Under the pieces are notes generated by a model. That model searched no databases and had not been told where the DNA came from. It was given only the letters and a program-made list of their open reading frames with translations. The position numbers and the translations under genes are program-made. From a virus, in the IMG/VR virus record IMGVR_UViG_3300031216_000053, positions 1 through 27,777 of that record: DNA of 27,777 nt; one strand, given 5' to 3'. Of this stretch, positions 784 to 27,777 are shown one piece after another. Within the stretch, counting starts at the first letter, position 1. Every line of letters begins with the position of its first letter.

Positions 784-801
784 GTTGCTCCAACGCAACT
801 T
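782..801. repeat. GTTGC-N6-GCAAC hairpin, copy 1 (convergent gene ends)
   Basis: The sequence AAGTTGC-tccaac-GCAACTT forms a 7-bp perfect stem with a 6-base loop. It sits exactly between the stop of the + gene at 783 and the stop of the - gene at 801. There is no long T-run on either side, so it may act as a weak bidirectional terminator or mRNA 3' end. It is a member of the eight-copy family. Confidence 0.7.
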
Positions 802-2228
802 TACGCAATAGCTTTAAGTCGACCGTACTCTTTGATGAGATCTCGTATCGATGTCTCATCTTCCATCTTTAGTTCCAAGGCTTTAAGCACAACCATGTCC
901 ATCGTGTTAGCCATCAAGATCCTGTGATTCATAACAGTCGGCGCATTGTTACCCTGCCTTCTTATGCGCGAGTACGCCTGATAGTACAACTCCCATGACC
1001 AGTTTAGACCGAACCATATTATGTTGTGGCAACTGGTTTGCAAGCGGTCAACCCCGTGACCCATCGATGCCGGATGTCCTATGATCATATCGAGGTTGCC
1101 AGTATTCCAGTCGATGATAGCTTGATTGAAATCTGACTCCGAGGTCTTCGATGAGATCCACATCGAGTTGGGGAATTCTTTCTGGATGCGGATAGCTTCA
1201 TGCTGAAACTGATATAACACTAGAACGGGCTGTCCGTTAAGTTCTTCGACAAGCTCTTTCATGGCGTCGATCTTCATCGTGTGTATATTTTCTGACTCAG
1301 GTAAACCAGGATTTAGGTAAACTGCGCCGCCCGCCCATTGCAGGCAACGATTCACCAGTGATGCCTTGTTTTTGATCTCGATTGAGTTACCGCTTTCCAA
1401 TTCGATTAACATCTCTTTCTCGATCTGATCATACTCAAGTTGCATACCTTTAGGCATATCAAGCATGATATCGTTGTCTAACAGATCCGGCATTTTAAGA
1501 TAGTCTTCGGCTCTAAGATCCATAGTGATGCCACCGATCAGGTCAGTGATCTGTTGCTTAGCCTTCTCAAACGGGGCGAACCTGTATCCACTGTGATCAG
1601 ACTGATAGAAGTATTTGAACTTGTACCTGTCGAAGCTTGTGCCTAACCGCTTACCGGAATCTATGCAGAGATATTGCCCGTACAGATCCAACATGCCGTT
1701 CGGGGCAGGCGATCCGGTTAACCCTACCCTTCGCGGGCAATACTGTAAAAGCTTGAGTGTTGCCACCCCTCGCTTTATACCTTGCTTTATACGAGTGCCT
1801 TTCATCTTTGAGATCTCATCTATGACGCACATATTCCAAGGCGGGTATTTGCCGTGTCGTAAAAACCGATGTTCGACCTCGGCCTGTAACCAGACTAAGT
1901 TCTCAAAGTTGATCAGGTAAATATCTGCCTTTTTGCATAGACCTCGTATGCGGCTACCCTTATCCCCGATCATATAAGAGAACGTGAGATTCTGTGTATG
2001 CGACCACTTCTTCGCTTCCTGCTTCCATACTGACTGTACTACACGGAGCGGGGCGAGCACCAATACACCCGACACAGAATATGAGTCATATTTTAAGCTC
2101 TCTACGGCTGTCAGAGTAGATATGGTTTTACCTAATCCAGGATCTTGATGGAGCATCGACTCCGGATTATCCTCGATGTGTCTGGCTGTACGGACTTGGT
2201 AGTTGTGTAGGTTCTCAGGTGTTAACAT
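801..2228 (-). CDS. SNF2-type DEAD/DEAH helicase (superfamily 2)
   Basis: The protein is an ATP-dependent DNA translocase or helicase of the phage SNF2-like group, 475 aa, which is the usual length for phage members. Visible motifs are Walker A DPGLGKT at residues 29-35, motif II DEIS at about 137-140, motif III TGSPAPNG at 171-178, and a motif VI region YSRIRRQGN at about residue 425. The start ATG at 2228 lies 14 bases inside the preceding coiled-coil gene, indicating translational coupling. It is the last gene of the leftward early block with VRR-NUC, polymerase B, DUF2815 and DUF2800 genes, a combination widely seen in phage replication modules. The role is probably replication-fork or recombination remodelling. 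Family assignment is firm; the substrate is not known. Confidence 0.92.
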   Translation of the reverse strand: MLTPENLHNYQVRTARHIEDNPESMLHQDPGLGKTISTLTAVESLKYDSYSVSGVLVLAPLRVVQSVWKQEAKKWSHTQNLTFSYMIGDKGSRIRGLCKKADIYLINFENLVWLQAEVEHRFLRHGKYPPWNMCVIDEISKMKGTRIKQGIKRGVATLKLLQYCPRRVGLTGSPAPNGMLDLYGQYLCIDSGKRLGTSFDRYKFKYFYQSDHSGYRFAPFEKAKQQITDLIGGITMDLRAEDYLKMPDLLDNDIMLDMPKGMQLEYDQIEKEMLIELESGNSIEIKNKASLVNRCLQWAGGAVYLNPGLPESENIHTMKIDAMKELVEELNGQPVLVLYQFQHEAIRIQKEFPNSMWISSKTSESDFNQAIIDWNTGNLDMIIGHPASMGHGVDRLQTSCHNIIWFGLNWSWELYYQAYSRIRRQGNNAPTVMNHRILMANTMDMVVLKALELKMEDETSIRDLIKEYGRLKAIA

Positions 2229-2467: not shown

Positions 2468-2755
2468 TCACCACTTCTCCACATCACTTAGATGAAGTAT
2501 CTTTTTAAACTGTTCGACGTTGAAGATCACAAACACCGCATGACCTAACTCAGTAAACTCTGCTATGGTTCGCTTTTGTACAGGTGAAAGCCTGCCGCCA
2601 TCTTTCTTAAACTCCACCCATACGGTAGCACCTTTAGGCGCAACGAACACTCGATCAGGTACACCGATTCGATTCGGGCAAGTTAGCTTCAAAGGTATCC
2701 AACCTTTTTGCTCTGCCATCTTGCAACACCTACGCTCTATCTCTTTCTCTTTCAT
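2468..2755 (-). CDS. VRR-NUC domain nuclease
   Basis: This is a 95-residue stand-alone VRR-NUC (PD-(D/E)xK superfamily) protein, the normal size for phage members, which act on branched or flap DNA. The diagnostic run is visible: an N-terminal helix with EIERRCCKMAEQKGW, the catalytic GVPDRVFVAP with its Asp, VEFKKDGGRLSPVQ with the E-x-K pair, and a C-terminal strand AVFVIF. The ribosome binding site AGGA lies inside the end of the upstream 38-codon ORF, only four bases before the ATG. It is encoded between that small membrane peptide and a coiled-coil gene, and next to the SNF2 helicase, with which VRR-NUC proteins are commonly paired in phages. Likely role: resolution or processing of replication and recombination intermediates. 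Confidence 0.92.
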   Translation of the reverse strand: MKEKEIERRCCKMAEQKGWIPLKLTCPNRIGVPDRVFVAPKGATVWVEFKKDGGRLSPVQKRTIAEFTELGHAVFVIFNVEQFKKILHLSDVEKW

Positions 2756-2759
2756 AAAC

Positions 2760-2876
2760 TTATCCTATGCTAATTGTTACAAAACTAAACAACCAAAGTA
2801 CCAATTCGATAGCAGCCCATCCAACTACGGCTGCAACTACAAAAAGAGGCCGAATTTTAATATTTGCATAACTCAT
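2760..2876 (-). CDS. Small hydrophobic peptide, 38 aa, predicted membrane protein
   Basis: This short ORF is coupled on both sides. Its ATG overlaps the TGA of the methylase-like gene (ATGA), and its TAA is four bases before the VRR-NUC start, whose ribosome binding site it contains. The product begins MSYANIKIRPLF and continues as one long hydrophobic segment (residues about 11-37, with VVAAVVGWAAIELVLWLF) without charges except one Glu. It looks like a single transmembrane helix, with the basic end at the N-terminus. Function is unknown. Similar tiny membrane peptides in phages can be holin-like or can alter host membranes, but nothing here specifies that. The tight coupling is the main evidence that it is real. 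Confidence 0.7.
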   Translation of the reverse strand: MSYANIKIRPLFVVAAVVGWAAIELVLWLFSFVTISIG

Positions 2877-3502
2877 AAATTACCCCATTGTTCGGCAAAA
2901 GCATCACCTATGCCAGTGAATGTCCTAGCTCGATCTTTCCATCTATCAGCACTCGGCCCCATATAAAAGACTGCCTCTCGCACCCTTACAGGCAGTCGCA
3001 TCATTTCACGGTACACGTTGTTGGTTTGAACTAGATCGGGAACTGAGGCTGTCTTATACAACCCTGTTCGCTTCTGTTGCATGTGACCGAACTCGTATGG
3101 CTGCACAAACTGCGGCAACGGCAAGCCTGCCATACTGGTAAGAACTCCAGGAGGGTTTTCGAAAACCACATTCTTACATACGTGCCTGCACTTAGACCAC
3201 AATATGGCTGTCCATCTGGCAGCGGCTACCCGTTCATAGTATAGCGGCGATCCCTCGGCATAGTGTTTGTTGCCCGCATTACAGAGTGCGGTACAGTCAG
3301 GGTGCATGATGATCAGATCCCATTTGATCTTACCGTTATTCAACAGGAACTCAGGGTTAAGAACATCAAGCACGTTACCTCTGTAGTGTAAGCCTTCGGG
3401 AGATTCGCTAGGCAGGAAGTCACAGGACATTGCGAAGTGACCGCGCTTGAGAAATGCGTCCCGAACTATGCCGGAGAACTCACAACCTATTAGAACGTTC
3501 AT
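2873..3502 (-). CDS. DNA cytosine methyltransferase-like phage protein
   Basis: The product is about 209 aa and belongs to a phage family often labelled DNA cytosine methyltransferase or hypothetical. The N-terminal MNVLIGCEFSGIVRDAF resembles a nucleotide-binding Rossmann start, followed by SCDFLPSESPEGLHY, IIMHPDCTALCNAG, FENPPG, a QPYEFGHMQQKRTGLY segment and the C-terminal GPSADRWKDRARTFTGI. Relatives I know usually carry HPPCT; here the Pro before Cys is Asp (HPDCT). That residue sits where the catalytic PC of a C5-methylase would be, so methylase activity is uncertain. The ATG at 3502 is chosen over the TTG at 3508. It overlaps the preceding zinc-binding gene and is coupled to the 38-aa peptide downstream. 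Confidence 0.75.
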   Translation of the reverse strand: MNVLIGCEFSGIVRDAFLKRGHFAMSCDFLPSESPEGLHYRGNVLDVLNPEFLLNNGKIKWDLIIMHPDCTALCNAGNKHYAEGSPLYYERVAAARWTAILWSKCRHVCKNVVFENPPGVLTSMAGLPLPQFVQPYEFGHMQQKRTGLYKTASVPDLVQTNNVYREMMRLPVRVREAVFYMGPSADRWKDRARTFTGIGDAFAEQWGNL

Positions 3503-3680
3503 CGTCAAACCAGATGTCCGATCTATCGGCTCTATCGGCGGCTAACTTCCCTGCATTTTCTAAGGTAAGCATAGATCCCGAACAGGTTTCACCCATAGGA
3601 TCAAGGTGACAACGCATCTTTCCGTTGTTATGCATCTTAACGCTCTCATCACATAGCGGGCATTTTTTCGTAATTGTCAT
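3480..3680 (-). CDS. Small zinc-ribbon-like protein
   Basis: This 66-aa protein has a probable zinc-binding knuckle in its first half: CPLC at residues 7-10, a short linker with H17, then C24-H25 and C33 around RCHLDPMGETC. The C-terminal half is charged (DRADRSDIWFDDER). The ATG overlaps the TGA of the gene before it (ATGA), and its own 3' end overlaps the methylase-like gene, so it is part of a tightly coupled run. Small zinc knuckles of this sort are common in phage early operons and often bind nucleic acid. No specific function can be assigned. Confidence 0.72.
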   Translation of the reverse strand: MTITKKCPLCDESVKMHNNGKMRCHLDPMGETCSGSMLTLENAGKLAADRADRSDIWFDDERSNRL

Positions 3681-3880: not shown

Positions 3881-3971
3881 TGTAAAACCTCTTGTGGTCA
3901 ATACGTCCGAGCCTGTCTTCTGCCTGCTTCATCCGCATTTGAATTTCTGTTGCAGTTAGGTTATCTGTCAT
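3870..3971 (-). CDS. Tiny ORF, 33 aa, coupled to polymerase gene
   Basis: The ATG overlaps the last codons of the DNA polymerase gene, with GGGG eight bases upstream (in GTGTGGGGTATAC). The stop lies 11 bases inside the next gene, so the layout is that of a translationally coupled chain. The peptide starts MTDNLTATEIQMRMKQ and continues as a charged helix AEDRLGRIDHKRFYNGV. The segment LTATEIQMR...LG resembles a helix in the portal protein of this same phage (MTATEVNAR...LG), which may be chance. It is supported by position and ribosome binding site, not by family. Confidence 0.45.
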   Translation of the reverse strand: MTDNLTATEIQMRMKQAEDRLGRIDHKRFYNGV

Positions 3972-5760
3972 TTGTATACCCCACACTCTTAACTATGTCC
4001 CATGCTTCTTCGATATACCATTCGTGATCGAGATCATCCGGTAGATCTACCGGCATTCTCATCATCGGTATGGCCCCATCACTCTTGGCAACCTTGTTAC
4101 CATTAGAGATATAATTTATAGGTGTCGATGTCTCTGTGCTGTAGTACCATCGGACAGTCTTGCCTACATAAACCCCATCTTTCTCGGCTCCACCTTTGAC
4201 CTTACGCACCGAGACAAACTGGTGCGGATCTTTGCACTCGTATATCGTACTGAACATAGGCTTATTGTAAAGCACATAATCGATAGCAGCCTTGGCGCAT
4301 ATAGGTGTCGTCGGATTCTTAGCCAATGCGGGCGGTTTGAATACACCCTTGGTCTTGACCTGATTGTCAGATGTTAGTGCGAAGTAGTTGTTCACATCCC
4401 TGTAGTGGATAGATTTGTAGATCGTACCTTCCATGTTAAACCCTGTTTCCTTTTCCCATTCTGCTACGATGTTATACATAAGATCAGGATTACTTTTAGG
4501 TACTAGCAACGTCAGACCGTCGGTGTTAGCTGACACGCACTGTATGCCAGCTAGAGACAGCCTTTCTATAAGCATCAGTAAGGTTAGCTGTCCGGTGAAA
4601 GTCACCCCTAGCAGCAAATTAGGGGCATATATGGCGCTAAAAACACTGCCGAGCTTGCCGAAGGTTCCGTTGATTGTGATCTTCAATGTGTCTGCTGTAA
4701 CTTTGTCACCGCTTCGCTTTGCTGTGACCCTGCGGTCAACTATGGACGAGAAGATCTTAGTGAACGTGTTGCCCATGTGAGGCGGCTCATAACCGGCGTT
4801 TAGTATCAACCTCGGATAGAAGCTTTCGACGTCTATGTCGGTTACTGTGTACCTGTCTGTTGACTCATAGGACTCGGCACTGTTCTTAGAATGCAGCCCG
4901 CCTAACCCTACAGCATATTTGCGATTGTCTATGGTGACAGTTTTGCCTTTCATCCAATCAGGGGTAATTGCTTTGCCATTAGCACCTATGTCGAAAGTTG
5001 TTTCTTCCAGGAAAAACAGGAACAGGTTTAATTCTTTGGTGGTAAACTTCACCCAATCAGGCGCAGTATATGTTAGGGTTCTCGGCAAAAACTCAGTACC
5101 TTTGTCGATAGGCTTGATCGCCTTGCTGCCTGTTATGCGTTGATACTCTGAGCAGATCACCTTCTCGGCTATCTGAGCATCAGATAGTGACCGGAGATCC
5201 TGTCCGTACTCGTTGCCCATGTTGACTCTAAGCTGAATCTGTTCCCATAAGGATAGAAACAACTCCCATGTGACCATGCAATCGTTGCGACAATAAAGGC
5301 GCATAAGGTCGAGGTGACTGTCCTCGATAACCGTGGATTCATGTAGCGGTAGATCTTGTATAGTCGACGTACCGTTGCGAGCAGCATATAGCTTGAGGCT
5401 TTCAAATAGCGGTAGCGGATTTATGATGTCAATATGATCTATCTGCAGCGTGTGGAAGTGGTACTTGTTTTCAAGCTGCCACCAAAACCAGTTGTTTTTT
5501 ATGATCAGGTTGCTCGCTTCTTTCAGCAGACCGTTCGATGCACCCATGAGTGCCATAGAGAAGATCGGGAGATCATACCGCTTGCCGTTGAAGGTTACGA
5601 GGGTTGCGCCTTCACTGAGTATGCGCCTGCCTAGATCACCAATCGGCATGTTCTCTCTGTCATTGTATTTTTCGTACTCGATAATCTCGCCACTCTCGAA
5701 AATGAAAGTGGCGAGGAAGTAGTTAACGTAACATTCACAGTCTAATATAACGTGACTCAT
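3961..5760 (-). CDS. Family B DNA polymerase with 3'-5' exonuclease domain
   Basis: This is the replicative polymerase of the phage, 599 aa, at the compact end for family B. The N-terminal DnaQ-like exonuclease has D7/E9 (LDCEC), Exo II FNGKRYDLP with D63, and Exo III YCRND with Y156 and D160. The polymerase domain has motif A DIDVESFYP at about 308-315, motif B K360-ITINGTFG, and motif C ANTDG at about 411-415. Motif C differs from the classical DTD: the first Asp is Asn (N412) and only D414 remains. I have seen this variant in other phage polymerases, so it need not mean inactivity. No terminal-protein domain is evident. It lies downstream of the DUF2815 and DUF2800 genes. The start ATG at 5760 lacks a strong ribosome binding site. 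Confidence 0.9.
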   Translation of the reverse strand: MSHVILDCECYVNYFLATFIFESGEIIEYEKYNDRENMPIGDLGRRILSEGATLVTFNGKRYDLPIFSMALMGASNGLLKEASNLIIKNNWFWWQLENKYHFHTLQIDHIDIINPLPLFESLKLYAARNGTSTIQDLPLHESTVIEDSHLDLMRLYCRNDCMVTWELFLSLWEQIQLRVNMGNEYGQDLRSLSDAQIAEKVICSEYQRITGSKAIKPIDKGTEFLPRTLTYTAPDWVKFTTKELNLFLFFLEETTFDIGANGKAITPDWMKGKTVTIDNRKYAVGLGGLHSKNSAESYESTDRYTVTDIDVESFYPRLILNAGYEPPHMGNTFTKIFSSIVDRRVTAKRSGDKVTADTLKITINGTFGKLGSVFSAIYAPNLLLGVTFTGQLTLLMLIERLSLAGIQCVSANTDGLTLLVPKSNPDLMYNIVAEWEKETGFNMEGTIYKSIHYRDVNNYFALTSDNQVKTKGVFKPPALAKNPTTPICAKAAIDYVLYNKPMFSTIYECKDPHQFVSVRKVKGGAEKDGVYVGKTVRWYYSTETSTPINYISNGNKVAKSDGAIPMMRMPVDLPDDLDHEWYIEEAWDIVKSVGYTNDR

Positions 5761-5824: not shown

Positions 5825-6544
5825 TTAAAGGAAGTCTATGTTCTTGGAAGCCGGAGCCGGAGCCGGAGCCACAGGCATTCCACCCGTAGCAAGATGATTA
5901 CCTTGACCCATAGAAGGCATTCCAGGAGCAGAGGCAGTGGCGGCAGGAGCGCCCGCGACAGGTTGGAAGATACCTGCTGCATCGACTTCTTCTGATCCGA
6001 AGTGTTCACCTTCGCGAAGATACTGCACCGCTACTAAGTTTGAGCGAACACCTCGACCATACTCGTTGTCCTGTAACCACAATGATATGACGCCATCACA
6101 GTAGTTGCCCCCGACGAACATGGTGTTGGCATTGGCTGTAGGAGGCAACTCTTTTCCATCAGTCCCGTATAGGGTAGGTTTCGCATTGTTAGATCCACCT
6201 ATCCAGACCACGTTGCCAGTATAACCTTCGTAGACCTCACCAGTCTGGCGGCTAGTTTTTTCGCTACCTATCCCGTAGCAACGCATCCACTTGTCCTGAT
6301 TGATCATATTGATCGCAGCAGGAGCATGTTCTTTCCACCTTTCAGTGGCTAGTTCTTGTAGGATCTGTCCGATCTCTGACCATTCAGGTGCATCAGGTGT
6401 AAGCAGGAAGTTGCAGGAATACTTAGGCGGGCCCTTCTCTACCGACTTAGGCACAAGTACATTCGGGAAACTAAGTCGAGCGTTGCGAATCCACAACACG
6501 TTGTTAGTTCCATTGGGGTTTTGCAATATCATAATTTTCTCCAA
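5825..6544 (-). CDS. DUF2815 single-stranded DNA-binding protein
   Basis: This 239-aa protein matches the DUF2815 family, an SSB-like OB-fold protein of phage replication modules. Recognisable segments are LWIRNARLSFPNVL near the N-terminus, KYSCNFLLTPDAPE, NQDKWMRCYGIG, and DGVISLWLQDNEYGRGVRSNL, with the core ending near residue 185. A flexible Ala/Pro/Gly/Met linker follows (a 6-bp GGAGCC tandem repeat encodes PAPAPA). The tail ends KNIDFL. The linker-plus-tip design parallels bacterial SSB. Its ATG follows the DUF2800 gene TAA directly. It probably coats single-stranded DNA and recruits partners through the tip. The tip is shared with several other proteins in this window. Confidence 0.9.
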   Translation of the reverse strand: MEKIMILQNPNGTNNVLWIRNARLSFPNVLVPKSVEKGPPKYSCNFLLTPDAPEWSEIGQILQELATERWKEHAPAAINMINQDKWMRCYGIGSEKTSRQTGEVYEGYTGNVVWIGGSNNAKPTLYGTDGKELPPTANANTMFVGGNYCDGVISLWLQDNEYGRGVRSNLVAVQYLREGEHFGSEEVDAAGIFQPVAGAPAATASAPGMPSMGQGNHLATGGMPVAPAPAPASKNIDFL

Positions 6545-7828
6545 TTATAAAAAATCAAAATGTTGCTCGGAAGCAACTTTCTCTGTAGTTTCGAACGGTA
6601 TATCAGGCAAAGCATTATCCCTTGGATCTGAATCAGGTACAACGCTAAGGCTACCTTCACCTTTAGATATGTACTTCTGTAACCGTTCTTTTTGCGCAGG
6701 CTTGAGCTTCGATATTTTCAAAGCTGCTGGCGCAGTGAGCATCCGTTCTTTAACCAGATGCTTTTTAAGTATCCTATCGCTGCCTTTGGTGATCTCAGCC
6801 AGGATCGTTTCTTCGTCAGTGTTCCACGCATTAGCGCCACCACACCGGACAAGCTTGAGCTTACCCTCAAGACGCTTATCACGTTCTTTCAGCAACGTCT
6901 TTATGCGGTCAGCGACAGACTTGAGATAGCCATTGATCAAGGGTGTCTTATCGAAGATATCAACTAGCCTGTCAACATCCATCATAGCAACATCGTCAAA
7001 CACTTCCGGTACTACACCGTCAGTTGCAGGCGCAAACGGGATACTGATAGCGTTGCGCATAACCTCGGCAGCAGCGGGACAGTCAGGTTTAGCTAAACAA
7101 AACCGGCATTGCTTCTGACCTGCAACAGGTTTTAAGTCTGTGACATCAGTTGCTCTTGCTATAGGTAGGACATCTTTATCAAACCAATCCATTAATTTCT
7201 CAGGGTCGTATTCTTCGTAACGAAAGATCTCACCGTTCTTATCAGGGAATCGAGGTTGCATGATCGTACCACGTACCCATGTCCACGGAACCTCACCTTT
7301 GGTAGCCTTCATGTACTGGCACATTTTGCCCAATACATAGAGCCTGTTTTGAGTGGTGTCAGATTCGACGAAGATACCCGATCCATACTTTAGATCAATG
7401 ACATCTATCGTCGAAGCATTAGACAAGATGACATCACCCGTACCCCAAAGGTCGTCGCGATTGGATATGTAATGCAGATCGACTCGACGCTCGATCTCCA
7501 TCCTGACCGTACCTTTCTCGCCGCCCAATTCATTGTACCTTTCCAGGACGTAGTTGACGCAACGCTGCAAGCAGTCGCGCATCTCATCGAGATCCATGTT
7601 TAGGTATTTTAATTCATCGGGTACATCAGACGGAACCATAACAACCGTGCCTTCACCGACACCGGCTATAAAATCTTTGAGAGTGCGCTCCATAATCGAA
7701 TGAGCAAACGTACCCTCTTTCGCTGCATCAGAGTCGCCGCCAGTTCGACCCTGTGACATATACACGGAAGCAGGACACCGGAGCCAACGCTCCGATGCAC
7801 TGAAACTTAGGCGGGCATGTTCGCTCAC
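6545..7828 (-). CDS. DUF2800 protein, Cas4/AddB-like PD-(D/E)xK nuclease with probable Fe-S cluster
   Basis: This 427-aa protein fits the DUF2800 family, normally encoded beside DUF2815. Visible features are LSFSASERWLRCPAS with C18, the EGTFAH motif with H43, GTGDV with D132, DVIDLKYG with D145 and K147, Q160 downstream, and CRFCLAKPDC with C241, C244 and C250. Four cysteines spaced this way are the Cas4/AddB signature for a 4Fe-4S cluster; H43, D132, D145 and K147 make up the nuclease site. It starts with GTG at 7828, overlapping the TGA of the gene before it (GTGA). It ends SEQHFDFL, one of the shared C-terminal tails. Likely role: DNA end processing in phage recombination. Confidence 0.88.
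   Translation of the reverse strand: MSEHARLSFSASERWLRCPASVYMSQGRTGGDSDAAKEGTFAHSIMERTLKDFIAGVGEGTVVMVPSDVPDELKYLNMDLDEMRDCLQRCVNYVLERYNELGGEKGTVRMEIERRVDLHYISNRDDLWGTGDVILSNASTIDVIDLKYGSGIFVESDTTQNRLYVLGKMCQYMKATKGEVPWTWVRGTIMQPRFPDKNGEIFRYEEYDPEKLMDWFDKDVLPIARATDVTDLKPVAGQKQCRFCLAKPDCPAAAEVMRNAISIPFAPATDGVVPEVFDDVAMMDVDRLVDIFDKTPLINGYLKSVADRIKTLLKERDKRLEGKLKLVRCGGANAWNTDEETILAEITKGSDRILKKHLVKERMLTAPAALKISKLKPAQKERLQKYISKGEGSLSVVPDSDPRDNALPDIPFETTEKVASEQHFDFL
6562..6577. repeat. GTTGC-N6-GCAAC hairpin, copy 2
   Basis: GTTGC-tcggaa-GCAAC lies inside the last dozen codons of the DUF2800 gene. On the coding strand it reads as codons for KVASEQ, just before the tail HFDFL. The loop is again exactly 6 bases. 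Confidence 0.7.
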
Positions 7829-8481: not shown

Positions 8482-8771
8482 AGACATTCAACGAACAGCA
8501 GATGGCTAACCCGTGGAGTTGGTGTGTAGGAGTCATAGAAAAATACGAACTGTCTAGTCGTATGGTGGCTGAGGCTACCGGCGCACCAAGGAGTACGCTT
8601 CGCTCCCTGTTCAATGGTAACAACACTAACCCGCGATATGAATTGCTTTGTAAGGTTATCCAGTTGTGCATCGACATCGAGAACGGCGGCGGATTCTTTC
8701 CTAAGAAGACTGGCAAGAAAGAAAAAGTTGCTCCGAAGCAACCTAAACAATCCATCGACGATTTTCTCTAG
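8478..8771 (+). CDS. Helix-turn-helix (Cro/CI-like) regulator with basic linker and C-terminal tail
   Basis: This 97-aa protein carries a helix-turn-helix at about residues 25-60: SSRMVAEATGAPRSTLRSLF followed by NGNNTNPRYELLCKVIQ, where the TGAPRSTL stretch looks like the recognition helix region. A Lys/Pro-rich linker (KKTGKKEKVAPKQ) follows, and the protein ends QSIDDFL, one of the shared tails. It is coupled to the ribbon-helix-helix gene by ATGA. Its stop overlaps the stop of the convergent sulfotransferase gene. It is likely a transcription regulator that can also contact whatever partner reads the DFL tail. No lysogeny genes are visible, so a role as lysogenic repressor is not supported. 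Confidence 0.75.
   Translation: MKTFNEQQMANPWSWCVGVIEKYELSSRMVAEATGAPRSTLRSLFNGNNTNPRYELLCKVIQLCIDIENGGGFFPKKTGKKEKVAPKQPKQSIDDFL
8727..8742. repeat. GTTGC-N6-GCAAC hairpin, copy 3
   Basis: GTTGC-tccgaa-GCAAC lies inside the last 15 codons of the helix-turn-helix gene, in the codons for KVAPKQ. The frame is the same as in copies 2 and 4. Confidence 0.7.
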
Positions 8772-9307
8772 GACGGTTTGTAAGTTGCAGGGATCAAAGG
8801 CGCTCGTGTCACTTCCAAGTAATCGCATATACGCAATGCGGTTTCGTGTTCTATTTTGCGGGCATCTTTCCCTTTGCACATGTCGTTATATGAAACGGTT
8901 AACGCAGGGTTTGAGGCAGTGAACTCGTCGAGGGCGAGCGAATCGTGAAGCAGATCATTCCAGACTTTAAACTTAGGGGTATGGCTTATACCTTCCTTTT
9001 TGACAGGCTCAGTATGTTGATCAGAATTCGTACCGTCGATGCTATTGAGGAATCGAGAGGCTACGATTTGAACCAACGGGCGTTTGATCCGTATGATTTT
9101 GGTAGGGATACTGATAGGGGCAATTTCACGTCGAATATGGTATGCTTGCACGATGCAACCGTGTATCTGTTTGCGGGTATGTCCGATGGGTATTTTATCT
9201 ATCATTTCATATTCCCCTTCACAGGATATTTCGGGGTGAGAGTCGAGAGCGGATGCGAGCATGTGACTGCCGGATCTAGGTAATGAGAGAATGATAAAGT
9301 CGTACAT
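8768..9307 (-). CDS. Sulfotransferase-like P-loop protein
   Basis: The ATG at 9307 is preferred (GGAA five to eight bases upstream), giving 179 aa. The N-terminus MYDFIILSLPRSGSHML has the strand and PRSGSH loop of PAPS-dependent sulfotransferases (5'-phosphosulfate-binding loop, residues 10-15), followed by DSHPEISCEGE. At about 71-84, IIRIKRPLVQIVASR fits the 3'-phosphate-binding motif with Arg and Ser84. It is short for the family but keeps both cofactor motifs. It stands alone on the - strand between + genes, like a moron. The substrate could be a host surface glycan, lipid or small molecule; the sequence does not say. A terminator-like hairpin lies directly upstream. Confidence 0.75.
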   Translation of the reverse strand: MYDFIILSLPRSGSHMLASALDSHPEISCEGEYEMIDKIPIGHTRKQIHGCIVQAYHIRREIAPISIPTKIIRIKRPLVQIVASRFLNSIDGTNSDQHTEPVKKEGISHTPKFKVWNDLLHDSLALDEFTASNPALTVSYNDMCKGKDARKIEHETALRICDYLEVTRAPLIPATYKPS

Positions 9308-9313
9308 AAGTTT

Positions 9314-9346
9314 CCAAAAAAATAACCCCTGATGTTGATCAGGGGT
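9314..9346 (-). terminator. Hairpin with T-run in the leader of the sulfotransferase gene
   Basis: On the - strand a 9-bp perfect stem (ACCCCTGAT / ATCAGGGGT, loop CAAC) is followed by TTATTTTTTT. It has the form of an intrinsic terminator but sits about 18 bases before the sulfotransferase ATG. It would end any leftward transcript just before the gene, acting as an attenuator or insulator. No - strand gene lies upstream. Confidence 0.6.
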
Positions 9347-9382
9347 AAAGTTACAGAAAACACAATAGCGGTGGAGTACCAA

Positions 9383-13196: not shown

Positions 13197-13245
13197 GCCT
13201 CCCCTCCGGTTAAGGAGGGGATGCTGAAAACAAGACATATTTTAC
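13197..13245. repeat. 49-bp direct repeat, copy 2, with terminator-like stem
   Basis: This copy is identical to copy 1 at 12058 in 48 of 49 positions. It begins two bases after the stop of the coiled-coil gene at 13247 (- strand sense). Its stem is intact apart from the outer pair changed by the mismatch. The T-run present after copy 1 is absent here, so termination is probably weak and the hairpin becomes the 5' flank of the 46-aa gene. Confidence 0.9.
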
Positions 13246-14763: not shown

Positions 14764-14776
14764 AATTTTCTCCGGT

Positions 14777-17950: not shown

Positions 17951-19564
17951 TTGCCCGTGACAACCTTTAAGGAAGATCTTGCCTTCATAGACAGCCTGTC
18001 CCGCGAGGACAAGATCAACCTCATGGAGTCGCTGAAAAATCGACAACCCTCATTAGTCACACATCCAGGACCGCAGACGATGGCGGCTGAGAGCGAAGCG
18101 GATCTCACGCTATACGGTGGAGCAGCCGGTGGCGGCAAGACGTTCCTTGCCATCATACTCGCCCTGACCAAACACCGACGAACCCTGATCATACGAAAAG
18201 AAGCCAGTCAGCTATACGCCATGCAGGATGAGATCGAAACAATCCTCGGCGGGCGCGAAGGTTTTAACAGTCAGAACGGTATCTGGCGACTACCGAACAA
18301 CGAGATAACAGATCCTTACGACGAGAAGCCTACGAGACAGATTCGTTTCGGAGGTCTTAACAAACCAGGAGATGCCGCGAAATATCAAGGCGCTCCCCGT
18401 GACTTACTGGTGATCGATGAAGCAGCAAACATATCCTATGGCGAATTCTCATATCTCACGGTATGGGAAAGAACCGCCTCAGAGGGACAGAAGACAAGAA
18501 CACTTCTCTGTTCCAATCCCCCAACAGATGCTACCGGAATGTGGATGGTCAGGATCTTCCGACCTTGGCTCGATCCAGACCACGATAATCCCGCTGTTGA
18601 CGGTGAGCTTCGCTGGTTTGTTATTGTGGAGGACGACGATTACGAGGTTGAGTGCGAAGGTGACTATATCATTGATAGGGATGATGGGATGGTCAGACTT
18701 GCTCTACCGGAGGAAATGCTCGATTCTGGAAACAGTATCTACTCGGCTCAATCGAGGACTTTCATAAGCGCGAAGGTCGACGACAACCCTCACATGATCC
18801 AATCAGGCTACAAGCAGAAACTACAACGACTACCGAAGCATTTGCGGGAACGTATGCTCGACGGTAAGTTCCTGTCGTCGCTAGAAGATGACCAGATGCA
18901 AGTCATACCTAGTGAATGGGTAGACCTCGCTATGCAACGGTGGAAAGACAGCGAGGATAAATCGTACACTAGAATGTCAGCTATGGGGGTAGATCCGGCT
19001 CGCGGCGGGCAAGATGAGATGACCATAATGACAAGGCATGGGTTCTGGTATTCCCCGATCATGAAGATTCCAGGAAAGGAAGTACCAACAGGATCGCTTA
19101 GTGCTGCTCGTGTTGTTATGGCAAGGCGAGACGGATGCAGGGTATACTGCGATGTGATTGGCATAGGTTCGTCAACCTACGACAAGCTTGTCGAAAACCA
19201 CATCGATGTCGATCCAATCGTAGGTAACGAAGGTAGTGATGCCATAAGTAAGGACGGTCTGTTTCACTTTAGGAATCTCAGAGCGGAACTGTTTTGGCGA
19301 TTGCGCGAGTCGTTAGATCCAGAAAGTGGTGACTTTATTATGTTGCCGCCAGACAAAAAGATGAAAGAGGATCTGTGTGCATTCAAGTACAAAATCTTGG
19401 AAGGGAATGTGATACAGGTCGAATCTAAGAAAGAAGTTAAGATGCGACTTAACCGATCACCCGATGCAGGCGACTGTGTTTTGTACACTTCCCGTGACGC
19501 CCCGATGCTATCTGACTTGCGTAAAGGGTCAAAACAGTTTAAAGTCCGACGATGTTTATCCTAA
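17951..19564 (+). CDS. Terminase large subunit
   Basis: This is the packaging ATPase-nuclease, 537 aa, a normal length. Walker A lies in LYGGAAGGGKTFLAII at about residues 54-68; Walker B is LLVIDEAANIS at about 151-161. A coupling-type motif TLLCSNPPT follows. The nuclease domain has MGVDPARGGQDEMTIM at about 345-360 (first acidic residue), VYCDVIGIGSSTYDKL, and RSPDAGDCVL near the end. The start may be TTG at 17951, directly after the previous TAA, or GTG at 17957; no strong ribosome binding site is present, so coupling to the 59-aa gene is likely. It assembles with the portal at 19901. Confidence 0.93.
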   Translation: MPVTTFKEDLAFIDSLSREDKINLMESLKNRQPSLVTHPGPQTMAAESEADLTLYGGAAGGGKTFLAIILALTKHRRTLIIRKEASQLYAMQDEIETILGGREGFNSQNGIWRLPNNEITDPYDEKPTRQIRFGGLNKPGDAAKYQGAPRDLLVIDEAANISYGEFSYLTVWERTASEGQKTRTLLCSNPPTDATGMWMVRIFRPWLDPDHDNPAVDGELRWFVIVEDDDYEVECEGDYIIDRDDGMVRLALPEEMLDSGNSIYSAQSRTFISAKVDDNPHMIQSGYKQKLQRLPKHLRERMLDGKFLSSLEDDQMQVIPSEWVDLAMQRWKDSEDKSYTRMSAMGVDPARGGQDEMTIMTRHGFWYSPIMKIPGKEVPTGSLSAARVVMARRDGCRVYCDVIGIGSSTYDKLVENHIDVDPIVGNEGSDAISKDGLFHFRNLRAELFWRLRESLDPESGDFIMLPPDKKMKEDLCAFKYKILEGNVIQVESKKEVKMRLNRSPDAGDCVLYTSRDAPMLSDLRKGSKQFKVRRCLS

Positions 19565-19900: not shown

Positions 19901-21556
19901 ATGACCCCGCAAGAGATTAAGACACGGTACGATGCGTTGTGGGGTTTGCGCAAAAGCGCAGAATCCACATGGGATCTAATTGAAAAATTCATAGTGCCTT
20001 TAAAGGGCGGCAAGTTTTTTCAGGATCAATCCTCAGAGCATGAGGTCGATTGGAGGCGCGGCAGAGATGTCTTCGACTCGACTGCAATCCTAGCCTGTAA
20101 CACACTGGCAAGCTCTGTACACGGTGCGTTGACTAACCCTTCTAACCGATGGTTTGGTTTACGGTTCCGACAGGACAAGCTTAATCTCGACGAAGAAGCA
20201 AAAGAATGGTTGCAGGCTTGCGCCGAGAAGATGTGGTATGCTTTGGTAGAGTCTGACTTTAACCTACAGATCAACGAAGCTTATCTGGATCTATGCGGCT
20301 TTGGTACATCGTGTATCGTAGAAGAAGCCGAAAGTGAAACCGAGTGGAAGGGTATAGACTTCTCAACTCTCCCGATCCGAGAGATCTACTTTGAACAAGA
20401 TCACAAAGGAGGCATACGTACCTTCTACCGTCGACATCAGTGGACACCTTTGCAGATCGTCGACAAGTTCGGCGAGAAGGGTGTTACCGATGCGATCAAA
20501 GAAAAGGCCAAGCTGCCTAATCAGGCCGATAACAAGCTGACGGTCATCATGTGCATTTATCCTCGTAAGGATAAAAAGGATGCCGACACAACCAAGATCC
20601 TGACTCCAGAGCAAAGACCATACGGTTTCAAGTTCGTACTTCATGAAACCGCAGAGATGTTAGGTGATGAAGGTGGCTACTATGAAATGCCCGCATTCCT
20701 GCCGAGATGGCAAAAGACATCAGGCTCTATGTGGGGCTATGGTCCTGGAACTATAGCTATAAGTGATGCCATGACCCTGAACACTATGGTAGAGCAGCGA
20801 CTAGCTGCAGCCGCGAAAGTCATTGACCCTGCTACACTGGTAACTGAGCGCGGCCTGATGAGCGATCTCGATCTACGTGCAGGCGGTCATACCGTTGTCA
20901 GATCTATGGACTCCATCAGGGAGTTTGAATCAAAAGCCCGTTTTGATGTCGCCGATCAACTCATATTGGATTACCGGATCAATATAAACAAAATCTTTCT
21001 GGTGGACAGACTTGAACTCAAAGAATCCCCTGCAATGACTGCTACCGAAGTCAATGCGCGATTCGATCTTATGCAACGTCTGTTGGGACCAGTATTCGGC
21101 AGACTGCAAACGGATCTGCTAGATCCGTTGATCGAAAGAACCTTCCGCATACTACTGCGATCAGGACAGCTACCTGAGATGCCGAATGTTGTTTTGGAAT
21201 CTAAAGGTGATTTTGATGTCGACTATATCGGGCCTATGGCTAGAGCGCAGAAGTCCGACAGTATCGCCATGATGGCGCAATGGATGTCAATGATGACAGA
21301 GTTTGCACAAGCGTACCCTGAATTGTCTGTATTGCCTGATGCAGAGTCTTTCGGTAGAGAGACAGCTAAAGCTATGGATGTTCCTGCGACGATCATCAGA
21401 TCCAAAGAGGAAGTGAAGGTTGAGGTCAACAAAAAGAGGCAGGACGCTATCGAAGCTAGACAAATGGAAATGTTGGCTATGGGCGGCAAGGCTACATCCG
21501 ATTTGGGCAAAGGTGCGAAACAGTTTGCCGAAGCGGGTATGCCTGTTAATCAATAA
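19901..21556 (+). CDS. Head-tail connector (portal) protein
   Basis: This 551-aa protein fits the T7 gp8-type connector family in length and motifs: an N-terminal EIKTRYDALWGLRKSAESTW, WRRGRDVFDSTAILACNTLA, LTNPSNRWFGLRF, YLDLCGFGTSCI, and the clip/stem-like PAMTATEVNARFDLMQRLLG then PVFGRLQTDLLDPLIERTF. It should form the dodecameric ring at the capsid vertex through which DNA is packaged, bound by the large terminase. AAGG lies about eight bases before the ATG. The tail is Gln/Lys-rich and helical. The gene is followed by hairpin copy 7. Confidence 0.93.
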   Translation: MTPQEIKTRYDALWGLRKSAESTWDLIEKFIVPLKGGKFFQDQSSEHEVDWRRGRDVFDSTAILACNTLASSVHGALTNPSNRWFGLRFRQDKLNLDEEAKEWLQACAEKMWYALVESDFNLQINEAYLDLCGFGTSCIVEEAESETEWKGIDFSTLPIREIYFEQDHKGGIRTFYRRHQWTPLQIVDKFGEKGVTDAIKEKAKLPNQADNKLTVIMCIYPRKDKKDADTTKILTPEQRPYGFKFVLHETAEMLGDEGGYYEMPAFLPRWQKTSGSMWGYGPGTIAISDAMTLNTMVEQRLAAAAKVIDPATLVTERGLMSDLDLRAGGHTVVRSMDSIREFESKARFDVADQLILDYRININKIFLVDRLELKESPAMTATEVNARFDLMQRLLGPVFGRLQTDLLDPLIERTFRILLRSGQLPEMPNVVLESKGDFDVDYIGPMARAQKSDSIAMMAQWMSMMTEFAQAYPELSVLPDAESFGRETAKAMDVPATIIRSKEEVKVEVNKKRQDAIEARQMEMLAMGGKATSDLGKGAKQFAEAGMPVNQ

Positions 21557-22847: not shown

Positions 22848-23723
22848 ATGGCTACCGATATTGATAAAGTCTATATTTCCACATTCGAACGTACCTTGCG
22901 CCATCTCGCGCAACAAGCAATCACCCGTCTCCGTCCTTTCGTTACTGAAAGATCTGGCGAAGGTAAAGACCACGCATGGGAAAGGTTGAGTGCTTCAACT
23001 TCTACCAGTAAAGCTGCCGGTCTGGTAGCAACCCCTTCTACTGGTGGAACTTACAGTAGACGTTTGTCTATCGCCGCAACTGAACATGCCGGTGATACCA
23101 CACAGCAAGAAGACATCGTACAGATGTTGATCGATCCGAACTCCAATCAGGCAATGTCACTCGCAATGGCAATTCGCCGAGCATGGGATACGGCGATCCT
23201 CGCTGCTGCCACTGGTGCTGCCACTGACGGTGATGGTGCAGCCGTTGCCTTCGATACGGCAAACCAGCAAATCGCTCCTGGATCTGCGATCACGTTTGAT
23301 CTCATTACTCAAGTGCAGGAAAAGTTTCTGGAAAACGACATCGAGCTTGATGTCCCCAAGGTGTTTGTTATTGGACCGAAACAGGTTCGCAAGTTGATGC
23401 AACTGACCGAGCAGACATCTGCCGACTACGTTCATCGCGAGTCCCTGCAACGTCTGTCAACTACCGGCATTGTCCCTAACTGGATGGGCTTTACGTGGGT
23501 CATGTCGACCCTGTTGAACATCACTGCGGGTACGCCCGATACCATCGACTGCGTTGCCTTCACGAAGCGCGGATTGGGTATGCAGGTCAACCGTGAAATG
23601 CTTGTCCGTGTTGCAGAAGATCCAACGAACTCTTTTGCATGGCGCATTTACTGTGCCACTACCTTCGGTATAGTACGAACCGAAGATGAGCATGTGGTCT
23701 GGCTGCAAGTGCAGAACACGTAA
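22848..23723 (+). CDS. Major capsid protein
   Basis: This 291-aa protein has an ideal Shine-Dalgarno sequence (TAGGAGG, eight bases upstream), its own promoter and its own terminator, as expected for the most abundant protein. Motifs match the phage capsid-like family: YISTFERTLRHLAQQAITRL, STGGTYSRRLSIAATEHAGD, DIVQMLIDPNSNQAMSLAMA, VPKVFVIGPKQVRKLM, and the end RIYCATTFGIVRTEDEHVVW. It probably has the HK97 fold. It is shorter than T7 gp10 (about 345 aa) but within range for related phages. No processing site is evident. Confidence 0.88.
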   Translation: MATDIDKVYISTFERTLRHLAQQAITRLRPFVTERSGEGKDHAWERLSASTSTSKAAGLVATPSTGGTYSRRLSIAATEHAGDTTQQEDIVQMLIDPNSNQAMSLAMAIRRAWDTAILAAATGAATDGDGAAVAFDTANQQIAPGSAITFDLITQVQEKFLENDIELDVPKVFVIGPKQVRKLMQLTEQTSADYVHRESLQRLSTTGIVPNWMGFTWVMSTLLNITAGTPDTIDCVAFTKRGLGMQVNREMLVRVAEDPTNSFAWRIYCATTFGIVRTEDEHVVWLQVQNT

Positions 23724-24292: not shown

Positions 24293-24901
24293 ATGGCTCT
24301 CTCAGAGGTATCCGTATGCAATCAAGCTCTAATCTGGCTTGGTGGAAACGTCATAACCGCCCTGACTGACGGTTCTGCGGAAGCCATAGCCTGTAATGCC
24401 GTATATGACCCTCTGAGGGATGCCGTACTGGAAGATCGTGAATGGACGTTTGCTGTAGCTAGGATACAACCTGCGGCTCTTGTAGCTACACCTGTGTTTG
24501 GATTTGATAAGCAATTTCAGATCCCCTCTAACGTAATACGAGTCCTACAGGTATCTGATGCAACAGCAGGGGTAATAGGATCTAGCGCGACAATGCAGGG
24601 ACGTTACAACAAGGTCGAGTGGCTGCGTGAAGGTGACACCATCGTAGCCAACAACGTCGACGCTATTTATGCAAGGGTGTTGACTCGGATCACAGATGTT
24701 ACAAAATTCAGTCCTGCTTTTGTGCAGGCACTAGCCGCCAGAATAGCTATGGATCTGGCGATACCGATTGCGGGTAGCAGGGAGCTGCAGTCTGATATGG
24801 CTGCCCTGTATGGTGAGAAGCTTAGAATGGCTGCGTCAACTGATGGGCTGCAAGGTCGATCATACATTACAAGATCAAACGAGTTTACAGAAGTGAGATA
24901 A
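24293..24901 (+). CDS. Tail tubular protein A-like (gp11-type) adaptor
   Basis: This 202-aa protein matches the T7 gp11-like family in length and landmarks: MALSEVSVCNQALIWLGGN, ACNAVYDPLRDAVLEDREWT, FDKQFQIPSNVIRVLQVSD, VEWLREGDTIVANNVDAIYA and a helical end with FVQALAARIAMDLAIPIAGS. It forms the adaptor ring between the connector (19901) and the nozzle. It follows the 66-aa gene by five bases, and the tail tubular B gene begins two bases after its stop. Confidence 0.9.
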   Translation: MALSEVSVCNQALIWLGGNVITALTDGSAEAIACNAVYDPLRDAVLEDREWTFAVARIQPAALVATPVFGFDKQFQIPSNVIRVLQVSDATAGVIGSSATMQGRYNKVEWLREGDTIVANNVDAIYARVLTRITDVTKFSPAFVQALAARIAMDLAIPIAGSRELQSDMAALYGEKLRMAASTDGLQGRSYITRSNEFTEVR

Positions 24902-24902
24902 T

Positions 24903-27044
24903 GTGGCTAAAGACTACGCAAAACAGATCGACTTCAAAGCGGGCGAGATCTCGCCGCAACTCTATGGTGATTCTGCTAGCGAATTCTATACCAAAGGATT
25001 AGAAACAGCAGAGAACATCACTATCAGTCGGAGGGGAGGGGCTTTTAAAAAAGAAGGTCTCCGTTATTTATATTCTCAAACAGATCCCGCGTTACAAAAG
25101 GATTCGGGGTGGCGCGTTTTCACGAAACAAATAAACAAATACAGATTTGATAAAATAATTCTTTCTGACGATGCTGTATATCTGGAAAACACAGGGAGGG
25201 CTTATACCGGTTTTAACTTAATAACTAACCCTGATTTCGCAGGCGGTAGTTTTACAGGGTGGTTTATCCCGTTTACCGATTGGCCCACATCATATACCTT
25301 GGACGGTTTCTCCATACACATCAAAGGTTACTTGAACACTTTTAGCGGTAACTCGGTAGTTGCCATGAGTACGGACTGTACTGTTTTTCGAGGGATCGGA
25401 GATTCCCATTTTTTAGAATTAAGACAAGCAACTGCTTCGGTCTTAACTGTAAAAATAGGAACTTCTAGTGGTAACGATGATATTGCATCTTTTACATCAG
25501 ACCAAGAGGTAATAACTTTTTCATTTATACCCAACAACGCTACATATTGGGTTAGTTTGGAAACGGACGCGAATACTGCGCCCGAAGGAAACATTATTTA
25601 TTTCGTCGGTAGTGCGGCTGATGCAGACAGGGGCGATCCTATAGTTGATATAAGCGTAACAACGCCACCTACGCTTTATGACCGAACTGATTTGCAAGAT
25701 GTACACATGATCACATCTCCTGATGGTACGGAAATGTTATTTCTTCATCCAAAGTACGAACCTGTTAAGCTTAATTATGTGTTTGGGTTAGATACGTATA
25801 TTCTCGATACAAGTTGGATTATACCTACAGTCGGTGAACCTGCTGAATGGACAGGGAATAATTGGCCCTCGATTGGTGCATATCATCAAGGGCGATTATT
25901 TTTAGCAGGTACGCCCGATGAACCTCAAAGAATTTGGGCTAGTCAAAGCGGGGATTACGGTGATTTCAGATTGGGTACTGGTTTGGACGGTGAAGGTTTG
26001 GATATAACCATGCAACGAGACGGACGCATAACGTGGATGTTTTCGGCTAGAGAACTTCTCATAGGGGCTGAAAACGGAGAACATATATTAAATAGCAGAG
26101 AGGGTGTTATAACCCCTAGCGATTTTCAATTCTCGTTACAATCGACAAACGGTGGCGCGAGAATCCAACCGCTTCAAGTAGGTGAAAAAATATTCTATGT
26201 GTCTTTGGATAGGCGTAGGATATATACGACTGCCTACTACAATGAAGAAAATGCATGGTTGTCAGAAGATATAGCTTTCGCCGCAGAACATGTCACAGAA
26301 GGTTTGATATTAAGGATGGCATGGGCGCAAAATCCTAATGCCATCCTTCATTTGGTTATGGAAAGCGGGGAGTATGTGAGTTTAACGTATGATAAATTTT
26401 CCCAAGTTTTAGGATGGTGCAGAAACCCTAACCCTAATTTGAAAGTTTTTGATATTGCTGTAGGGAGCATTAATGGCAAAGACATGCTGACAAGGGTTGC
26501 GTGGGTCACAGAAGCGGAAAGACCTCACATGGAGCAAGCTACGGACAAAACGATCTATATGGAAACTAATGTTCATTTTGTAAGCAACGTTTCCACAACG
26601 ACAGTTACGGGTCTTGATCACCTTGAGGGAAAGACTGTGCAGGTTTTGGTTGACGGTGCTGTTAGTCCTGAAAAGGTTGTGAGCGGAGGGTCTATAACGA
26701 CAAGTGACGCGGGTACTGATTTTATTGTCGGTTTGCAAATTTCTGCCAAGATAAAAACTTTGCCGCCTGATGTGCCTCAAGGTCAAATTAAATCATGGAA
26801 GAAACGGTGGAACAAACTATGGGTATTGTTACATTTGTCGTTATACCCTAAGATCAATGGAAGGCGACCCCCTGACAGAAATCCAGGAACGCCAATGGGA
26901 ACGCCAGAGCCGCTCGTAAGTGGGCATTCCAAAATGGTCGACTTGGGTTGGGACGAAAATGGTCAGGTTACTATTGAAGAAGATCAACCAGTACCAATGA
27001 ACGTGTTATCCATTTATGGCGAACGTAATAGGGAGTCTTTGTAA
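24903..27044 (+). CDS. Tail tubular protein B-like nozzle with inserted jelly-roll-like domain
   Basis: This 713-aa protein starts with GTG. The N-terminus KQIDFKAGEISPQLYGDSAS, the NITISRRGGAFKKEGLRYLY segment and later WPSIGAYHQGRLFLAGTPDE then PQRIWASQSGDYGDF are hallmarks of gp12-type nozzle proteins. Between about residues 98 and 235 the usual short link is replaced by a beta-rich segment starting FNLITNPDFAGGSFTGWF, like the opening of carbohydrate-binding jelly-roll modules. It then returns to the family at TPPTLYDRTDLQDVHMITS. The gene looks more AT-rich than its neighbours. It forms the tail nozzle, and the insert may bind surface sugar. Insert assignment is inference. Confidence 0.85.
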   Translation: MAKDYAKQIDFKAGEISPQLYGDSASEFYTKGLETAENITISRRGGAFKKEGLRYLYSQTDPALQKDSGWRVFTKQINKYRFDKIILSDDAVYLENTGRAYTGFNLITNPDFAGGSFTGWFIPFTDWPTSYTLDGFSIHIKGYLNTFSGNSVVAMSTDCTVFRGIGDSHFLELRQATASVLTVKIGTSSGNDDIASFTSDQEVITFSFIPNNATYWVSLETDANTAPEGNIIYFVGSAADADRGDPIVDISVTTPPTLYDRTDLQDVHMITSPDGTEMLFLHPKYEPVKLNYVFGLDTYILDTSWIIPTVGEPAEWTGNNWPSIGAYHQGRLFLAGTPDEPQRIWASQSGDYGDFRLGTGLDGEGLDITMQRDGRITWMFSARELLIGAENGEHILNSREGVITPSDFQFSLQSTNGGARIQPLQVGEKIFYVSLDRRRIYTTAYYNEENAWLSEDIAFAAEHVTEGLILRMAWAQNPNAILHLVMESGEYVSLTYDKFSQVLGWCRNPNPNLKVFDIAVGSINGKDMLTRVAWVTEAERPHMEQATDKTIYMETNVHFVSNVSTTTVTGLDHLEGKTVQVLVDGAVSPEKVVSGGSITTSDAGTDFIVGLQISAKIKTLPPDVPQGQIKSWKKRWNKLWVLLHLSLYPKINGRRPPDRNPGTPMGTPEPLVSGHSKMVDLGWDENGQVTIEEDQPVPMNVLSIYGERNRESL

Positions 27045-27777
27045 TGTCAATAACTAGCATCTATCATCCTACCGCATCTGACCCTGAAGGGCAGAGTGCG
27101 CCTCAAGCCGGATTCCAGACAGGTCTTACCATAGGTTCTATGTTCGGGCCTACAGGGGCGGCTGTAGGGGCTGCTATAGGGACTGTTGTGGGTGGCTTGG
27201 ACAAAGGTTCTCGCAGAAGGCGTAATCGGGCCATACGGAAGGTTACACGAGCATCATATAATTTTAGTGGTGACGTGTTTAGTTATGCGCAAGAGGCTCA
27301 TGGAAGTATTGCGAAAACCTATAGTGCAAATATGTCCTCAATGACCGCTCGATTAGCTGCAAGCGGCGGGCGTAGCGAAGGTGCGCTTGCAACGGAACGT
27401 GGTAAGATCCTTATGTCCCGCGACAGTGAGCTTGAGGTTTTGAATACCGAACTTGAAGGTTACAGAGCCGGTGAAGGATATAAGTGGATGCGAAAAGATT
27501 ACGAGGCGTTAACCTCAATAGCAGGACGCACTAATTCAGGTGGTAGAAGCCCTGAGTCTGCAAAGTTCGCCTTAAGAATTGGAAAGCCTCAAGGGAAAAC
27601 CGGCAGGGCTGCGTTTACCCCTGAGCAGTATGCCAGATTGAAAAAGCTCACTGTCGCGGGCGCTAACACGGGAACCCCGACATCTTACCAAGCGTATCGT
27701 GATGCCGTTGTTCCGACTTTGGAAGAATACGAAAAGTTCCAATTTGGCAATGATGCACAAAAAGCAGAATACGTGAA
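27044..27777 (+). CDS. Putative internal virion/ejection protein (partial, 3' end outside window)
   Basis: The ATG overlaps the stop of the nozzle gene (TAATG) and the frame stays open to the window edge, giving at least 244 residues. The N-terminal part has a glycine-zipper hydrophobic segment, FQTGLTIGSMFGPTGAAVGA then AIGTVVGGL (about residues 24-52), followed by a basic patch KGSRRRRNRAIRK. It continues as Ala/Ser/Glu-rich helix (AKTYSANMSSMTARLAASGG, VLNTELEGYRAGEGY). Place and membrane-active segment fit the internal core proteins that form the ejection channel in podoviruses, but no single family motif is certain. Confidence 0.68.
   Translation, partial: MSITSIYHPTASDPEGQSAPQAGFQTGLTIGSMFGPTGAAVGAAIGTVVGGLDKGSRRRRNRAIRKVTRASYNFSGDVFSYAQEAHGSIAKTYSANMSSMTARLAASGGRSEGALATERGKILMSRDSELEVLNTELEGYRAGEGYKWMRKDYEALTSIAGRTNSGGRSPESAKFALRIGKPQGKTGRAAFTPEQYARLKKLTVAGANTGTPTSYQAYRDAVVPTLEEYEKFQFGNDAQKAEYV

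Follow-up and report, generated by a model that had tools for sequence, protein, structure and literature searches.

Does a compact family B DNA polymerase (PolB) with an altered motif C, encoded in one contig with podovirus-type head and tail genes, point to a distinct replication lineage? The question is raised by a viral record of IMG/VR (the window, i.e. the whole stretch of 27,777 bases that was analysed), which is a contig covering part of a genome. A first-pass annotation, made from the sequence alone, had proposed such a lineage. Its reading of the genes is right, and the window is a distant member of an ordinary polymerase family with a known gene combination. We consider it highly probable that the window comes from an uncultured podovirus-type phage, of which it holds the replication block and the front of the virion block, and that its polymerase is an ordinary PolB of the phrog_1252 family serving as replicase.

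The polymerase and its neighbouring genes

The polymerase gene lies in a minus-strand open frame of 601 codons, just two more than the 599-aa protein (Table 1). In a profile search the protein matches phrog_1252 (“DNA polymerase”), a phage PolB family, over its full length (residues 3-598, E 3.5e-174); Pfam reaches only its exonuclease part, with PF10108 at 21.5 bits, just below the cut-off of 24. The exonuclease motifs are intact, as had been claimed (ExoI D7xE9, ExoII N58...D63, ExoIII Y156...D160), and their six residues are kept in 102 to 104 of the 104 rows of the polymerase alignment described below. Motif A supplies D310 and motif C reads S410-A-N412-T-D414-G415; D310 and D414 are invariant across the same 104 sequences. 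None of the relatives found shares more than 45% identity with the window polymerase, and the solved structures matched by the family profile, among the matches listed, are distant polymerases with DTD in motif C.

An AlphaFold model (mean pLDDT 92.3, built from a 51-sequence alignment) aligns over its whole length to solved PolBs, namely to residues 135-747 of KOD polymerase (Z 16.6, rmsd 7.8, 471 residues aligned), 150-771 of E. coli Pol II (Z 14.8, rmsd 7.1, 466 aligned) and 108-893 of RB69 polymerase (Z 14.5, rmsd 6.4, 484 aligned). The model covers the exonuclease and polymerase parts; because the alignments start at these internal residues, the compactness of the enzyme corresponds to an absent N-terminal domain, with no catalytic part lost.

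The podovirus-type head and tail genes reported earlier are borne out by matches for the portal, the tail proteins, the major head protein and the terminase large subunit. The portal belongs to PF12236, the head-tail connector family of T7-like podoviruses, which extends beyond those phages. In its polymerase family the window differs from the T7 type (Autographiviridae), also as reported: the sequenced part of this partial genome encodes a PolB, and no family A polymerase (PolA, PF00476) was matched in the 27.8-kb record by a search that did match Vibrio phage phiVC8. A contig of the same virus (L012/L168) continues past the window end into further virion genes, so the window genome is incomplete, and the ends of the contig are not those of the genome.

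The genes said to lie beside the polymerase (DUF2815, DUF2800, VRR-NUC, SNF2 and a primase-VapE fusion) are all found by Pfam or phrog matches. Those for the DUF2800/PD-(D/E)XK protein, the Enc34-type single-stranded DNA-binding protein (SSB), the polymerase, the methyltransferase, VRR-NUC and SNF2 form a minus-strand group, and the primase-VapE fusion is on the plus strand. The order DUF2800-SSB-Pol-SNF2 on one strand recurs in 20 of 80 IMG/VR loci (the best 80 of at least 592), 15 of which have VRR-NUC between Pol and SNF2. In Enc34 the DUF2815 protein is ORF6, according to excerpts of its description (PMC5686142). A further minus-strand ORF (8768-9382) has a sulfotransferase-family N-terminus (PF13469, E 5.7e-8), which is unexpected beside replication genes.

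Table 1. Genes of the window discussed in the text, with positions, strands and family matches
Feature	Position	Strand	Matches and remarks
SNF2-type helicase	801..2228	-	PF00176 E 6.6e-17; phrog_62
VRR-NUC nuclease	2468..2755	-	PF08774 E 1.4e-6; phrog_93
DNA methyltransferase	2873..3508	-	phrog_757 E 3e-49; no Pfam match
Family B DNA polymerase, 599 aa	3961..5760	-	phrog_1252; motif C SANTDG; intact exo motifs
T7 gp2.5-type ssDNA-binding protein (DUF2815 / Enc34_ssDNA-bd)	5825..6544	-	PF10991 E 1.1e-13; phrog_112
DUF2800 / PD-(D/E)XK exonuclease	6545..7828	-	PF10926 E 1.5e-55, PF12705; phrog_69
Primase (RepB_primase type)-VapE-like helicase fusion, 847 aa	9406..11949	+	PF16793, PF05272
Terminase large subunit	17951..19564	+	PF03237; phrog_979
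Podovirus portal / head-tail connector	19901..21556	+	phrog_332 E 9.3e-124; PF12236 E 2.4e-108
Major head protein	22848..23723	+	phrog_3437 E 1.6e-57
Tail tubular protein A type	24293..24901	+	phrog_394 E 5.1e-40
Tail tubular protein B type	24903..27044	+	phrog_376 E 3.1e-89
Internal virion protein, runs off contig	27044..27775	+	phrog_6056 E 2.5e-4

Motif C and the role of the polymerase

With the window polymerase as tblastn query, 942 of 50,697 phage records match, GenBank and RefSeq copies of one phage being counted apart. From these hits we picked 23 relatives for motif alignment, with identity from 44% down to 24% over part of the protein and with hosts in Escherichia, Klebsiella, Pseudomonas, Burkholderia, Rhizobium, Rhodobacter, Vibrio, Rheinheimera, Leuconostoc, Enterococcus and Bacteroides. 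All 23 have NTD in motif C, followed by Gly in 22 and by Ala in one. Scanning viral contigs with the polymerase protein alone gave no close relatives; an alignment query gave at least 592 relatives in IMG/VR, the best 80 of which were added. In the resulting alignment of 23 relatives, 80 IMG/VR sequences and the window, N412-T-D414 is found in 104 of 104 rows, a count biased by the origin of the 80 sequences in a scan with two patterns, one containing NTD and the other a stretch of motif A that includes D308.

The first-pass annotation was thus correct that Asn (N412, in SANTDG) stands in place of the first Asp of motif C. It is not a peculiarity of the window enzyme, since NTD occurs in every one of the relatives sampled from the tblastn hits. 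Judged from these alignments, phrog_1252 PolBs as a rule have Asn at the first position of motif C, with NTDG nearly throughout, and the NTDG of the window follows the NTD[G/A] form of the family. Because the residue is present in every sampled relative of a family that matches 942 phage records, Asn in motif C of phage PolBs like these should not be taken as decay or novelty. The sections of Kazlauskas et al. 2020 available to us (PMC7544198) describe crAss-like and HelPrimPolB groups that differ in MotifC and KxY, further PolB groups without the first motif C Asp, and primer-independent PolBs that lack it and polymerise very efficiently. CrAss-like phage polymerases, one of the groups in those sections, matched the window PolB by tblastn and by fold (∼25-30% identity over partial length), and that of the crAss-like Rudgehvirus likewise has NTDG. 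A literature search for NTDG with DNA polymerase and phage detected no instance; figures and most subscription papers were outside its scope, so the motif may be described there.

Could N412 instead mark a crippled or specialised enzyme, for instance a translesion polymerase, and not the replicase? Archaeal B2 PolBs, which have one motif C Asp, show weak activity and a translesion role according to the same sections of PMC7544198; however, NTD is invariant among the family members sampled and the exonuclease motifs are retained, and we regard such an enzyme as very unlikely here.

The PolB is most likely the phage replicase, which would elongate and would proofread through its own exonuclease. 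Judging from its domains, the primase-VapE protein would prime and unwind, and the SSB would coat single strands; a replisome primed by RNA or DNA is likely, given a primase-helicase fusion, an SSB and a proofreading PolB. As in other PolBs, catalysis would depend on D310 of motif A and on D414, the second motif C Asp. We take these two residues to be the metal ligands expected from the general PolB mechanism.

Protein-primed replication of the phi29 kind would fit the compact size of the polymerase and the podovirus-type virion genes, yet we consider it extremely improbable. Only 50 residues separate D310 from K360 of motif B (median 50, range 44-107 across the 104 sequences), which is short for the TPR1 insertion of phi29, and such an insertion between motifs A and B is not seen; this short gap disfavours protein priming. 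The primase fusion encoded in the window also argues against it, as do the fold matches listed, which are archaeal, alpha, delta, Pol II, T4-type and poxvirus or herpesvirus PolBs. No phi29-type polymerase is among those listed, which proves nothing alone.

For the phrog_1252 replicase that we favour, an acidic residue, D308, lies two positions before the catalytic D310. Asp occupies this position in 21 of the 23 tblastn-sampled relatives; in the larger set the residue is acidic (Asp or Glu) in 102 of the 104 sequences, a count biased by the scan pattern that contained D308. To our knowledge, canonical DTD polymerases have no acid at the equivalent position. The missing motif C carboxylate might have been re-sited, with D308 taking over the role of the first Asp of DTD; on this sequence pattern we hold the idea to be doubtful, though worth stating. 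The exceptions, Leuconostoc phage Ln-9 (Gln) and Enterococcus phage DEfc27b (Met), speak against a strict rule, and both would need a third arrangement.

Integrity of the contig, repeats and a possibly variable gene

Polymerase and virion genes might also have been brought together by assembly, the window being a chimera of a PolB phage and a podovirus. A 49-nt repeat, with copies at 12058 and 13197, sits between the two halves, and contig L002 begins within the second copy. Parts of the right half are covered by four contigs of the same virus, and contigs from other samples confirm that half, whereas searches found no second contig for the left half. Exact 30-base pieces from the polymerase gene, from the end of the primase fusion and from 12.56 kb retrieved none, in collections that may omit records very near the window, and a scan with the primase fusion gave distant relatives only. 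As no second contig was found, the left 13.2 kb, including the junction, is known from a single assembly.

We nonetheless judge a chimera improbable. The inverted repeat AGTTGC-N6-GCAACTT occurs at eight places, four to the left of 12 kb (782, 6560, 8725, 10592) and four to the right (14420, 17706, 21555, 23746), which amounts to 16 strand matches with at most two mismatches where 0.60 are expected. The core of this repeat, GTTGC-N6-GCAAC, was present in only 8 of the 182 loci: five from the same virus, the polymerase locus of the window itself, and two others. In addition, the layout of two opposed blocks is shared by Vibrio phage 1.185.O (see below) and by five IMG/VR contigs with related polymerases (G051, G058, G068, G071 and G078).

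Three of the eight copies of the inverted repeat lie at or just past gene ends; the element is a candidate terminator, operator or host-derived signal. The 49-nt copies (12058-12106 and 13197-13245) are 98% identical, and consist of a hairpin-like, G+C-rich inverted repeat plus downstream sequence. Between 16531 and 17001, a 30-nt unit is repeated three times in tandem and a 21-nt motif of the GATGAACATATCA type occurs five times; this stretch may be an origin of replication or a control region.

Contig L002, almost identical to the window, carries ∼1 kb of extra DNA at window position 14776 (window 14767-14790; L002 1555-2558), flanked by two copies of a leader repeat of which the window has one. 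Two proteins are encoded there, one of 94 aa and a sliding-clamp-like one of 196 aa. The 196-aa protein matches phrog_947 (processivity factors) at E 8.8e-7 and PF02767 at E 0.0079, below the cut-off; its best family is phrog_3007, labelled RusA-like resolvase, which the annotated clamps of Kmi2C and Seurat match weakly. Among 33 records searched, it was matched in the contig of L002 itself and weakly in G051 and G058. The clamp-like gene may be variable in the virus of the window (deletion between repeats), or the window assembly may have collapsed there.

Virion and replication genes in other phages

Among phage records, the closest virion genes are those of the Vibrio phage phiVC8/VP5 group and of Alteromonas phage ZP6, with portals 44-46.5% identical to that of the window; phiVC8 has a PolA (PF00476, E 2.1e-44) and no match to the window PolB. 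In a portal tree the window clusters with the fragments L005 and L006; their group of 42 rows also holds the PolA carriers phiVC8, G013, G020 and G039, plus G042, and five PolB contigs form a separate starred group. In a polymerase tree the window pairs with L081 as its sister (98, starred), and both fall within a group of 58 rows (98, starred). That group takes in every one of the 20 loci with DUF2800-SSB-Pol-SNF2 in order and, of the 23 phage-record polymerases, AH2 alone. Both trees come from quick searches, lack bootstrap and carry long-branch warnings, the polymerase tree being on a simpler model. The portal tree leaves out G085, which has a strong phrog_332 match yet no blastp match to the window portal, G052, whose contig ends within the portal, and 6 of 49 loci with at most 420 aligned residues.

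The 49 IMG/VR records with portal relatives include three with PolA (G013, G020, G039) and none with PolB, an absence that means little since most are fragments. In L005 and L006, which have the closest portals, the gene for the terminase small subunit starts within 1.6 kb of the contig end, so the contigs do not cover their replication block. G042 (L166, L167), of 39 kb, has a portal 69% identical to that of the window, and integrase and excisionase genes; it matched neither the window PolB nor PF00476, and other polymerase types are possible. Given the different placements in the two trees, the virion and replication blocks look like products of different history, which from these sequences we read as ordinary mosaicism; as the searches were quick and the branches long, we do not propose a dated event. 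The window would be one more case in which related virion blocks are paired with PolA, PolB or no recognised polymerase. Replacement between PolA and PolB is known in crAss-like phages, according to excerpts of PMC7886860.

Among the best 80 IMG/VR polymerase loci, 49 are on contigs of at least 15 kb. DUF2800 is found in 23 of these, phrog_394 in 4 and phrog_332 in 13, with E below 1e-50 in 7; the 6 weak matches (E 5.6e-13 to 4.1e-5) were not taken for podovirus portals. Four contigs (G051, G068, G071 and G078) combine a tail tube protein, the portal and DUF2800 with PolB; one of the four, G051 (L076), has a VapE-like match, and its tail tube match has one internal stop. Megablast of window bases 1-25000 against phages gave no match. 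PF12236 matched none of the 23 phage records with aligned polymerases (23 of 942 matching), a sample that favoured the proposal of a distinct lineage; the phage that speaks against it was reached through the primase search alone.

That phage is the cultured podovirus Vibrio phage 1.185.O._10N.286.49.C2 (MG592551). Like the window, it has a phrog_332 portal, tail proteins of phrog_394 and phrog_376, and a phrog_1252 PolB (696 aa, motif QANTDG), together with DUF2815, DUF2800, an adenine methyltransferase, VRR-NUC, a phrog_62 (SNF2) helicase and, on the opposite strand, the primase fusion. Identity to the window is 25% for the polymerase, 23% for the portal, 41% for SNF2 and 37% for the primase N-terminus; the helicase half of the fusion has no blastp match, and the methyltransferase gene is on the other side of the polymerase than in the window. 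The PolB of 1.185.O (L183 28738-30828) is annotated solely as “ribonuclease H-like domain protein” and is therefore missed by annotation searches. Six records appear in both the polymerase and the portal search with 1.185.O proteins, 40 matches being listed in each (MG592551, MW824406, MG592403, MG592404, MG592405 and MN592897), and the primase fusion of the window matches the same six through its N-terminal part. The full gene set was read in MG592551; in the other five Vibrio records the polymerase, portal and primase N-terminus, as in the window, are search matches (Vibrio phages 1.021.A, 1.021.B, 1.021.C, PS25B.1 and MZH0603). In excerpts of the paper on the Nahant collection (PMC6029569), 1.185.O and 1.021.A-C are classed as Podo Type-3.

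The notion of a distinct replication lineage does not hold up against these records, the same set being present in 1.185.O and the replication block having been described for AchV4. The first-pass annotation had named close matches in a well-described phage genus as what would tell against it; the combination does exist in 1.185.O, but the relatives are distant and we found no named genus for them. By the available parts of its description (PMC7996906), AchV4 carries its PolB gene among DNA metabolism genes and, like the window, has a primase-SF3 helicase fusion, DUF2800, DUF2815, PolB, VRR-NUC and SNF2, but is a siphovirus. Enc34, also a siphovirus, resembles the window in having a primase, DUF2815 and a DNA polymerase in its replication module, with VRR-NUC and a helicase (PMC5686142, excerpts).
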